A stretch of DNA of 46,990 nt from a bacterium (GTDB lineage: Bacteria > Patescibacteriota > Patescibacteriia > Patescibacteriales > Patescibacteriaceae), in assembly GCA_029570385.1 (NCBI GenBank), contig JAKPXD010000002.1, positions 1 to 46,990 of the forward strand, in the 5' to 3' direction. This document shows positions 23,327 to 46,282 of the stretch, piece after piece. The position numbers were made by a program, and so were the translations under genes. Numbering within the stretch: the stretch's first letter is position 1; every line of letters starts with the position of its first letter. The notes under the pieces were generated by a model that saw only the letters and a list, made by a program, of their open reading frames with translations, was not told the origin of the DNA and did no database searches.

Positions 23327-23800
23327 CTATTCGGCTGGCATCGCCTCAGCTGTTTCTGGCTGGCCCTTGGGCTGCTTATCAATATCTTTAGGCGGAATCT
23401 CTTTAAAAACCGCTCCGAGTACGCCATTGACAAACCGCCCGGAAGCGTCGCCGCCAAAACTCTTAGCCACCTCAATCGCCTCATTAATCGCCACTTTGGC
23501 TGGAATATTCTGGTCAAAAACTAGCTCATAAGTGCCGATACGCAAAATATTGCGATCTACCGGTGTAATTTGATCAAGCGGCCATTCAGTCGCATATTTG
23601 ACGATATAATTATCAATCGCTGGTAAATTAGCCACCACCCCTTTGACTAAATCATTGACAAAACCATGATCGTCAAACTCGGGAGCAAATTGCTGAAAAC
23701 TTTCTTTAACCAAATCTTCTAATTTATCTTTTTGGCCATTAAAATCCCAGCAGAACAAAGTCTGCATGGCAATAGTTCTGGCCAGATGACGATTAGCCAT
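23327..23800 (-). CDS. nusB: Transcription antitermination protein NusB
   Basis: NusB binds boxA RNA with S10 (NusE) in rRNA antitermination. The 157-residue helical protein has [20 protein letters not shown] at the start, [24 protein letters not shown] (core PxxxIxxVDRNILR) and the C-terminal [26 protein letters not shown], all strongly conserved in NusB; a short Pro/Lys-rich tail is extra. It lies 4 bases after rpmF and 5 bases before rnc, an operon of ribosome-biogenesis genes driven by the promoter at 24100. Confidence 0.97.
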
Positions 23801-32213: not shown

Positions 32214-32242
32214 TTGACAAGCCAAAGAATTAATGATAAGTA
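32214..32242 (+). promoter_or_regulatory. Promoter of the hairpin-packed small gene
   Basis: Perfect TTGACA (32214-32219), 17-base spacer, TAAGTA (32237-32242) preceded by TGA, giving an extended -10. The expected start point, about 32249, is the first base or so of a hairpin TGTCC-ctaaata-GGACA (32248-32264), so the RNA would begin with a stem. Confidence 0.65.
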
Positions 32243-32287
32243 CAAAGTGTCCCTAAATAGGACAAAAAATAAAAAGGAGGCAATAAA

Positions 32288-32524
32288 ATGCCGATCGTTT
32301 CAATAAGTCAGGGGTTGTCTTCGGATGACCTACACGTCACGGCACTGGGGTGCAAAACAGTTGAAGAAGCAGATATCATTTTGAACCACCCTCAATGTGC
32401 TGAGACCACCAGACAGATGGTGGTCGCCAAGATCAAACTCTTTGACAAAAAAGAGTTCAACCAAGTCGACGAAAACTATCACAGCGACATTGTCGCTGTG
32501 GCTAAACAAAAAAACGGCGGCTAA
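32288..32524 (+). CDS. SD-led 78-aa ORF tiled with RNA hairpins
   Basis: ATG 32288 is preceded by AAGGAGG, one of only two strong Shine-Dalgarno sequences I see in the window. The 78-residue product is hydrophilic and unrecognised (LHVTALGCKTVEEADIIL, VVAKIKLFDKKEFNQV). The sequence is more GC-rich and C-ending in codons than its neighbours. The transcript folds into successive local hairpins: GGTTGTC-TTCG-GATGACC (32313-32330, a UUCG tetraloop), GCAC/GTGC (32342-32353), GACCACC/GGTGGTC (32404-32425), AACTCTTT/AAAGAGTT (32436-32457), CACAGCGAC/GTCGCTGTG (32480-32500). The TAA stop is in the loop of a further hairpin (32515-32533). It could be a protein gene with selected mRNA structure, or a structured RNA with an incidental ORF. 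Confidence 0.65.
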   Translation: MPIVSISQGLSSDDLHVTALGCKTVEEADIILNHPQCAETTRQMVVAKIKLFDKKEFNQVDENYHSDIVAVAKQKNGG

Positions 32525-32533
32525 AAGCCGCCG
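32515..32533 (+). terminator. Hairpin with the stop codon in its loop
   Basis: Perfect 7-bp G/C stem CGGCGGC / GCCGCCG; the 5-base loop TAAAA begins with the stop codon of the 78-aa ORF. No T-run follows, so it is more likely a 3'-protective stem than the terminator proper. Confidence 0.8.
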
Positions 32534-32552
32534 CACAAAATCAAGTTCTTAC

Positions 32553-32593
32553 GGGACATATCCGGCTCGCCGGCTCTATGTCCCTCTTTTTTT
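32553..32593 (+). terminator. Strong intrinsic terminator of the 78-aa gene
   Basis: Outer stem GGGACATA / TATGTCCC, inner stem CCGGC / GCCGG, followed by TCTTTTTTT. It is the clearest terminator in the window and closes the unit that starts at about 32249. Confidence 0.92.
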
Positions 32594-38345: not shown

Positions 38346-38762
38346 ATGACCAAAACAACTTCAACCGCCAACCAATCAGCCCGCCGGACTACTCAATCCA
38401 ACGAAGCTGCCGATTGGTTGACAATCAGTGGCCATGAAGGCCAATTGTCCTTAGATATTTATCAAACTGAAAAAAATTTAATTGTTAAATCTACCATTGC
38501 TGGCGCTCGACCGGAGGAAATCCAAATTTCTCTCAAGAATGATCTTTTAACCATTCGCGGCAAACGCGATCTGCCTGAAGATATTGCTGAGGCTGATTTT
38601 TTATTCCGAGAATGTTATTGGGGTCCATTCTCTCGTTCAATTATTTTACCGGTTGATGTCCAAGCCGATAAAATCAAAGCTACAATGGATAACGGTGTTT
38701 TAACCATCGTCTTGCCAAAAGCCCCGCAAGCTAAACAAATCGTCATCAAGGTTAAGTCTTAA
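38346..38762 (+). CDS. Hsp20/alpha-crystallin small heat shock protein
   Basis: ATP-independent holdase chaperone. After a short N-terminal arm, the alpha-crystallin domain runs from about residue 38: LSLDIYQTEKNLIVKSTIAG, IQISLKNDLLTIRGKRDLP, FRECYWGPFSRSIILP, and VDVQADKIKATMDNGVLTIVLPKAP (start and end). The usual C-terminal I-x-I motif appears as IVIKV. At 138 residues it is typical. It follows ftsK by 9 bases and precedes the DUF3006-like gene by 5, so it has no separate heat-shock promoter that I can see. Confidence 0.93.
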   Translation: MTKTTSTANQSARRTTQSNEAADWLTISGHEGQLSLDIYQTEKNLIVKSTIAGARPEEIQISLKNDLLTIRGKRDLPEDIAEADFLFRECYWGPFSRSIILPVDVQADKIKATMDNGVLTIVLPKAPQAKQIVIKVKS

Positions 38763-45410: not shown

Positions 45411-45436
45411 AATAAAAAGGCCGTTGATTAACGGCC
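45411..45436 (-). terminator. Terminator of the 284-aa gene, stop codon in the loop
   Basis: Stem GGCCGTT / AACGGCC, 4-base loop; the TAA stop (45430-45428) overlaps the loop. On the minus strand the stem is followed by TTTTTATTTGATTTTTT. Same stop-in-loop arrangement as at 32515-32533 and 40876-40915. Confidence 0.9.
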
Positions 45437-46282
45437 GTTGTTAGGAATTTCTACCAACCAGACTTTCTGGTGGTAGATTTGGGTACTATCATAAATAAAA
45501 TGCTGATTAAGATCAGCGATACTGCAAAATATCAGCTGATCTTTTTTAATCAGGGGGTAACACTTACCCCCGTCCCAGTCAATAAAGACCGGGTCGGCTA
45601 CGGCAATCACGCCGTATTTTTTGGGCAAGAAGGTTGTTAAAAACGCTTCCGCCCACTCGGCCTCGGGTATCATTAGGCCAGAGGCGCTAATCTCGGTAAT
45701 CACCTCTTCCAGTTTTTCACCCGAAACCTCTATTAACACAAATTGACGCACCTCCCGACTTGGGAGGGTGGTTTTTTTGTGTCTAAACCAGCCATAGCCC
45801 CAATATTGGGGTGAGTACTGGCTAGCCATGCTAGCCAGGCTACTGTTTTCATCAATGGCTAACCAAAATTTTTGGTTAACCACTGGACAGGGTCGCCGGC
45901 GGTTTAACTTTCTTTCTAATTCATAGAAAGAAATTAGCCCAACCAGAGGGGCTATGAAGAGACCCAAAGATGCCGATAATGCACACAAGAAATACAAGAT
46001 TACTATGGACATGTCAGCCCATAATAGGGCAACGATAACCGGCCAAATATTACCGTAGTCTTTCCAGGCTATGGGATAGTTGGCTCTGAAAAAAGATTCA
46101 GCCATGACGGCTAATCTTTTTTCACAGAAAAACAAAATTATCGCTAGCAATACCATTAATGCTAGCGTAGATCCCTTGGTCAATGTCGCTTGAGCTCTCT
46201 CCGAGAGCACAAAGAATATGACCAGATTGCCAAGAGACAAAATGGCCAATACCAGGATCGACAAAATTCTGATAATTTTCAT
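45428..46282 (-). CDS. SD-led membrane protein gene tiled with RNA hairpins
   Basis: ATG 46282 follows GAGGAG at 6 bases, a strong SD. The 284-residue product has about four N-terminal membrane helices (to about residue 120) and a cytoplasmic C-terminal domain (FWLAIDENSSLASMASQY, RQFVLIEVSGEKLEEVITEI, KKYGVIAVADPVFIDWDGG); I recognise no family. The coding sequence is packed with local hairpins, for example GGGGGTAA/TTACCCCC (45553-45571), CTGGCTAGC/GCTAGCCAG (45818-45838), TTTCTTTCTA/TAGAAAGAAA (45909-45933), a 12+4-bp stem (46087-46124) and CGCTAGCA/TGCTAGCG (46142-46167). It lies just downstream of the rRNA genes with its own promoter and terminator. The protein reads well (signal-like start, plausible helices), so I treat it as coding. 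Confidence 0.8.
   Translation of the reverse strand: MKIIRILSILVLAILSLGNLVIFFVLSERAQATLTKGSTLALMVLLAIILFFCEKRLAVMAESFFRANYPIAWKDYGNIWPVIVALLWADMSIVILYFLCALSASLGLFIAPLVGLISFYELERKLNRRRPCPVVNQKFWLAIDENSSLASMASQYSPQYWGYGWFRHKKTTLPSREVRQFVLIEVSGEKLEEVITEISASGLMIPEAEWAEAFLTTFLPKKYGVIAVADPVFIDWDGGKCYPLIKKDQLIFCSIADLNQHFIYDSTQIYHQKVWLVEIPNNGR
45437..46279 (-). repeat. Array of about 20 consecutive local hairpins in the 284-aa gene
   Basis: Further inverted repeats, by plus-strand position: 45451-45476 (11 bp, one bulge), 45505-45551 (GATTAA, GATCAGC and GATA nested stems), 45599-45616 (TACGGC/GCCGTA), 45736-45782 (ACACAAA/TTTGTGT around CACC-TCCC/GGGAGGGTG), 45798-45811 (CCCCAATATTGGGG), 45856-45882 (10 of 11 pairs), 45935-45954 (TAGCCC/GGGCTA), 46194-46208 (GCTCTC/GAGAGC), 46226-46250 (ATTGCCA/TGGCCAAT, one bulge), 46263-46279 (AAAATT/AATTTT). 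Arms differ from one another, so these are not copies of one repeat. Confidence 0.9.

Follow-up and report, generated by a model that had tools for sequence, protein, structure and literature searches.

The transcription unit at 32214-32593

The window, a stretch of 46,990 nucleotides, contains on its forward strand a single compact transcription unit at 32214-32593, read from the sequence as a promoter, a 5' hairpin, a strong Shine-Dalgarno sequence (AAAGGAGG), an ORF of 78 codons and a terminator. The flanking genes, one tatD-like and one cvpA-like, are both on the opposite strand. The predicted promoter (32214-32242) comprises the -35 hexamer TTGACA (32214-32219), a 17-nt spacer ending in TGA and the extended -10 element TAAGTA (32237-32242). 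It was not listed by a simple sigma-70 scan because the -10 is weak. The homologous gene of a second genome (G001, described below) presents TTGACA-N17-TAAATA, with the same -35 hexamer, spacing and TGA, and this conservation is better evidence for the predicted promoter than the scan.

The leader contains the hairpin TGTCC-CTAAATA-GGACA (32248-32264), of 5 bp and only -5.3 kcal/mol in the fold; a hairpin of different sequence was identified at the matching position of the G001 homologue. The Shine-Dalgarno sequence (32273-32280) lies within an open, A-rich leader and is followed by the ORF (32288-32524), with its ATG at 32288 and TAA at 32522-32524 and a product predicted to be all-helical. 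The unit closes with an intrinsic terminator (32553-32593), recognised from sequence and fold, formed by an 8-bp GGGACATA/TATGTCCC stem with an inner hairpin (32553-32584) and then a U run. The promoter, 5' hairpin, strong Shine-Dalgarno sequence and terminator named in an earlier note on this DNA are all present in the sequence, the promoter being matched in G001.

The 78-aa protein and its homologue

The genome with the window is that of a Candidatus Falkowbacteria relative, its MetG being 74% identical to that of UBA1359, the closest named record. A syntenic homologue was identified in G001, a second Falkowbacteria species of the same genus, at L009:3941-4192 (-), with E 1.5e-18 and 48-51% identity; it has the same orientation and adjoins tatD. 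Gaps between the two frames are whole codons, that is in-frame indels, and pN is 0.34 vs a pS of 0.87 (saturated). The small ORF suggested earlier is supported by this conserved protein, and on this alignment 32288-32524 is judged to be a real protein-coding gene under purifying selection.

The earlier statement that the product matches no known family also held: Pfam, NCBIfam and PHROGs gave no match above cut-offs and a Foldseek search of the model against the PDB gave nothing below E 2. The AlphaFold model comprises five helices at moderate confidence (pLDDT 76.5, pTM 0.60). No homologue of the ORF was found in the other genomes of the order and class, where weak profile matches to distant candidates look like chance because they fall in unrelated longer frames or in frames with stops. 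A viral or phage origin was rejected, since neither viral contigs nor phages contained a relative and PHROGs gave no match. In the third member of the genus (G002) the assembly breaks here, one contig ending inside tatD and another starting just past the neighbouring gene, and therefore absence of the homologue from that genome was not concluded. The two G002 contigs, C43 and C47 (L020 and L027), break exactly at this hairpin-rich locus, and hairpins may hinder sequencing or assembly. The product is a small, genus-restricted and probably helical protein from a monocistronic gene.

Folding of the mRNA

The MFE fold of the whole unit has -121.8 kcal/mol vs -86.4 +/- 6.0 in dinucleotide shuffles (z -5.9). 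Hairpins tile the coding sequence and the stop codon on the forward strand (32312-32533): a UUCG hairpin at about 32312-32331, two 8-bp hairpins at about 32404-32425 and 32436-32457, a stem of 9-10 bp at 32480-32500 and a stop-codon hairpin at 32515-32533. These five and the terminator had been listed in the earlier note and belong to the best fold; the 4-bp hairpin 32342-32353, listed as well, does not. For the coding sequence alone, the stability was reached by none of 1000 synonymous-codon shuffles, which preserve protein and codon usage (z -4.5), and by none of 1000 dinucleotide shuffles (z -4.9). The coding sequence contains seven perfect stems of at least 7 bp (loops 3-8) vs 0.45 expected in synonymous shuffles (0/1000). 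Its GC3 is 0.56 vs a genome mean of 0.38 +/- 0.06, in agreement with the atypical base composition and codon endings noticed before; structure as a by-product of GC3 is ruled out by the codon-preserving shuffles.

The mRNA of the G001 homologue is equally structured (z -4.6, 0/1000 synonymous shuffles), and the two share no MFE base pair, which goes against the dual-function RNA with a specific fold first proposed for this unit. One alternative stem fits both genes: the homologue (H-P-D-I-V-R-V) is able to pair in the register of 32480-32500 (codons H-S-D-I-V-A-V), three double changes separating the two. It was not taken to prove that the fold is conserved, since the D-I-V codons (GAY-ATY-GTC) are near-palindromic alone and since one of several stems may coincide when both genes are under hairpin pressure. 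Rfam at gathering scores gave only rRNA and tRNA matches in the whole window, none of them at 32214-32593. The fold is generic and not a conserved RNA structure; from the synonymous shuffles and the turnover of pairs, the structure is of the GORS-like kind, extending over coding RNA and depending on sequence order.

A hairpin-tiled gene class

The comparison comprises two whole genomes, the one containing the window (G000, 654 kb) and G001 (700 kb), part of a third species (G002) and two partial outgroups (G012 and G087). Segments of 120 nt were folded on both strands and composition was regressed out. The fold scores over 1266 genes are bimodal, most being near zero and a small set standing apart. 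This set, the hairpin-tiled class, contains about 16 genes in G000 and 19 in G001 (~16-20 per genome, of roughly 600); four further hits were omitted by judgement, namely L7/L12, an ORF overlapping 16S, a 49-aa ORF and one weak gene. Codon-preserving shuffles confirm most members, and the density of perfect stems (7 bp or longer) is 7.4 and 3.9 per kb for class genes vs 0.6 elsewhere. The message at 32214-32593 is hairpin-folded end to end because its gene belongs to this class, a membership missed in the earlier note because it is invisible within one window.

Most class genes stand alone: for 26 of 35, the nearest 60 nt on both sides are free of genes of the same strand, vs 210 of 1169 others. 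They are also inherited as such, since of 464 reciprocal best pairs between G000 and G001 both genes are in the class in nine and only one in two (9/11 retained; Fisher 2e-17). A heritable class of mostly stand-alone, hairpin-tiled genes is well supported. Its proteins are more diverged (median identity 49% vs 70%) and its pairing is not fixed: over the nine orthologue pairs 149 of 1642 mapped base pairs (9%) are in common, 104 of them with unchanged bases, and thus structure is maintained while individual pairs turn over. In the 167 kb of G002 that were examined, the five most structured genes include four of this set. The genes of ribosomal proteins, which are presumably expressed at high levels, are outside the class. 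Contamination was discarded as a source, the class genes having orthologues and sitting in long syntenic contigs.

Structure of the sense strand beyond that of the antisense strand, corrected for composition, is -0.47 in the class vs -0.02 in other genes and is seen in 29 of 35 class genes, a bias partly expected since genes were chosen by sense score, yet only two genes are structured on the antisense strand alone. A comparison of G+U between sense and antisense was set aside as confounded by composition, because other genes present the same difference. The start region of class genes (leader and first codons) is open and pairing climbs from about codon 5, which fits an RNA that is translated yet otherwise shielded.

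Leaders of the class

The sequence AAAGGAGG, with at most one mismatch and at the right place, was identified in 28 of 1256 genes of both genomes; 23 of these 28 are hairpin-tiled vs 20 of the remaining 1228 (p 1.5e-32). An exact TTGACA is found in 20 of 39 class leaders vs 48 of 1117 others. A scan for promoter and Shine-Dalgarno sequence that was blind to folding gave mostly hairpin-tiled genes and one new member that the gene caller had missed. The 32214-32593 unit has the traits of the class: the TTGACA promoter, AAAGGAGG, a single cistron and a terminator.

A third element was learned from the class leaders, TGTACTTTAAAAA / TGTTCTTTAACAA, which resembles the boxA of E. coli (TGCTCTTTAACA) and lies 22-64 nt upstream of the starts, beside the Shine-Dalgarno sequence. 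By leave-one-out, 25 of 32 class leaders score above 95% of the background, mostly above 99%, and both rRNA leaders, held out of training, score 14.8 and 15.6 (background 99th percentile 6.6). These boxA-like elements are putative NusB-S10 antitermination sites. The match of the 78-codon gene is weak: its leader contains TGTCCCTAAATA, the 5' part of the 32248-32264 hairpin, a degenerate match with a score of 1.6 that is reached by 7.7% of background leaders. No boxA-like motif was found in the leader of the G001 homologue, which, like the 78-codon gene, has a small hairpin there.

Outside the genus the association was partly recovered. In G087, from another family, the motif trained on the Falkowbacteria genus marks 16 boxA-positive genes that are more structured (mean Z -1.7 vs 0.2, p 4.7e-6), mostly with an exact TTGACA and without a strong Shine-Dalgarno sequence. 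In G012, another genus of the same family, the class is weak, as is the link between Shine-Dalgarno sequence and hairpins in comparison with the Falkowbacteria genomes (3/15 vs 4/349, p 0.002). The window also contains nusB (23327-23800, minus strand; Pfam NusB, E 9.3e-37), the gene of the boxA-binding protein, which is outside the class and whose product would act in trans on the element. The whole genomes of G000, G001 and G002 gave no Rho (control genomes detected, 12/14), and therefore the classical roles of boxA, whether anti-Rho or Rho-dependent, are not directly applicable.

Other members of the class

The sole other gene of the window like the 78-codon gene is found at 45428-46282 (-), probably the first hairpin-tiled unit of the earlier note. 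It encodes a 284-aa membrane protein of no Pfam family, adjoins the end of the rRNA operon, has the boxA-like AGAACATTAAAAA 38 nt before its start and is the most structured gene of G000 (Z -10.3). Elsewhere in G000, a hairpin-tiled gene of 189 aa (L048, C12:10576-11145, plus strand; synonymous z -6.5) carries the boxA TGTACCTAAAAAA and was missed by a codon-based gene caller.

The products of the class are NUDIX hydrolases, an inositol-phosphatase-like protein, DUF218, a membrane pyrophosphatase, LysM and glycosidase-like secreted proteins, lipoproteins, radical SAM enzymes and several unknowns; many of the genes are without an orthologue in the other of the two species. The class membrane pyrophosphatase is at G000:C3:38499-40682 (-), and its best match in G001 (39%) pairs best with another gene of G000, which suggests a pair of pyrophosphatases in G000, with armour on only one. 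Across G000 and G001, a T9SS type A sorting domain was identified in five genes, all of them hairpin-tiled members: L107 (G000:C31) 477-1814 and, in G001, C1:37943, C1:84650, C1:261134 and C5:50488. Such domains occur in 32 of 111 genomes of the order. A search for SprA, of the T9SS translocon, left its own control undetected and hence is uninformative on absence of the translocon. A separate observation in the window is the small heat-shock-like gene at 38346-38762 (+), where the antisense and not the sense strand is unusually structured (antisense Z -3.6).

Interpretation

The best reading, held tentatively at somewhat less than an even chance, is that these are rRNA-style mRNAs with generic hairpin armour. 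The class itself is defined by a TTGACA promoter, an unstructured leader with the strong Shine-Dalgarno sequence that is rare in the genome, a tiled coding sequence and mostly a boxA-like element. Its mRNAs would be made in the manner of rRNA, processively from a strong promoter and, in the case of leaders with a boxA, by a polymerase modified by NusB-S10. The resulting transcript would not be tightly coupled to ribosomes and hence would be unprotected by them; hairpins may then act as generic armour against RNases, lengthening the life of the transcript, and the open leader with its strong Shine-Dalgarno sequence would admit ribosomes when available. Both the loose coupling and the protection by hairpins are inferred. 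In the 32214-32593 unit the 5' hairpin occupies the place that a clear boxA has in others. In designed eGFP mRNAs, structure of the coding sequence together with an open start raised functional half-life (PMC6883848). A bolder and unlikely extension is that such antiterminated and armoured mRNAs outlast the cell or exit from it, either kept in store during host-free dormancy or passed on to a partner cell; the latter would agree with the T9SS sorting tails, which only class genes carry.

The palindromes may instead be products of templated (quasi-palindrome) mutation, in genes that are transcribed strongly or were acquired recently, with no selection on structure. The stems are largely Watson-Crick, the antisense strand is structured as well and class genes are often accessory, with flat, alien-like codon use, all as this origin would have it. 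It is nevertheless unlikely, given the excess of sense over antisense structure beyond composition in 29 of 35 genes, the open leader and start region, the rRNA-like promoter, boxA and Shine-Dalgarno sequence that accompany the structure, and the very high rate that fast turnover would demand against purifying selection on the protein.

Regulation in the manner of suhB is likewise improbable. Under this reading, boxA beside the Shine-Dalgarno sequence would let the Nus complex hold ribosomes off, and the hairpins would be devices of pausing or attenuation rather than of stability. In E. coli suhB 6 nt separate boxA from the Shine-Dalgarno sequence, and repression of translation by the Nus complex is followed by Rho termination (PMC5725501). 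The class motif, 22-64 nt upstream of the start and next to the Shine-Dalgarno sequence, follows this precedent and NusB is encoded, but repression of suhB ends in Rho termination and Rho was not found in the three genomes; furthermore several members, the 78-codon gene included, are without a clear boxA, and hairpins across the whole coding sequence would be left unexplained.

A dual-function RNA, in which a specific fold has a function besides the coding of a protein, is very unlikely. Its folding is very strong, one stem is in register with three double changes and the stop-codon hairpin is at a matching place by eye; against these stand the absence of common MFE pairs with the homologue, the 9% of mapped pairs in common over nine orthologue pairs, mostly of unchanged bases, the lack of an Rfam family at the locus and the presence of the same property in about 35 unrelated genes.

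Genes or mRNAs that work in, or were taken from, another cell such as a host, armoured for transfer, are still harder to credit. The five of five T9SS type A genes in the class and the signal peptides or lipoboxes of several class products would suit them, but the promoter and boxA are of the organism's own rRNA type, its own 16S carries the anti-Shine-Dalgarno sequence and no host is known. Finally, an ordinary gene whose hairpins come from chance or from high GC3 is hardly tenable: its remaining single features (promoter, Shine-Dalgarno sequence, terminator) are ordinary, and it is refuted by the codon-preserving shuffles (0/1000) and by the statistics of the class.

If the preferred reading of rRNA-style, armoured mRNAs is true, the genes of a minimal bacterium fall into two kinds that differ in the physical form of the mRNA, operon genes nearly devoid of strong Shine-Dalgarno sequences vs stand-alone, rRNA-like, hairpin-tiled mRNAs with strong ones. 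Gene regulation in Patescibacteria would then have a new level, boxA would have a use even in a Rho-less genome, and the idea that coding-sequence structure sets mRNA life would have a natural test case in bacteria. The class is also a sequence signature for uncharacterised, possibly interaction-related genes. Gene finders that expect normal codon use from their training can overlook such genes, as a simple caller did with G000 C12:10576-11145.

Comparison with known systems

No description of such a gene class was found in an open-access literature library. The novelty concerns the gene class as a whole, every single ingredient having precedents. The first are the boxA/NusB-S10 leaders of rRNA operons and suhB, which like the class combine a strong promoter with a boxA-like element, here TGTTCTTTAACAA / TGTACTTTAAAAA, common to the organism's own rrn leaders. 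The differences are that the boxA-like elements of the class lead hairpin-tiled protein genes, that Rho was not found and that the boxA of the 78-codon gene is degenerate. SgrS and RNAIII are dual-function small RNAs, in which a folded RNA contains a small ORF. The 78-codon unit is alike in this arrangement and differs in having no conserved functional fold, a conserved protein and a property common to many unrelated genes. In the GORS of persistent RNA viruses and in the structured genomes of ssRNA phages, coding sequences are structured throughout and pairing is generic rather than conserved. The class is alike in both respects, whereas its members are cellular bacterial mRNAs from a defined gene subset, with common leaders and no viral relatives found. 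The designed eGFP mRNAs (PMC6883848) share with the class the structured coding sequence and the open start region; the class differs in being natural, bacterial and known here from sequence alone.
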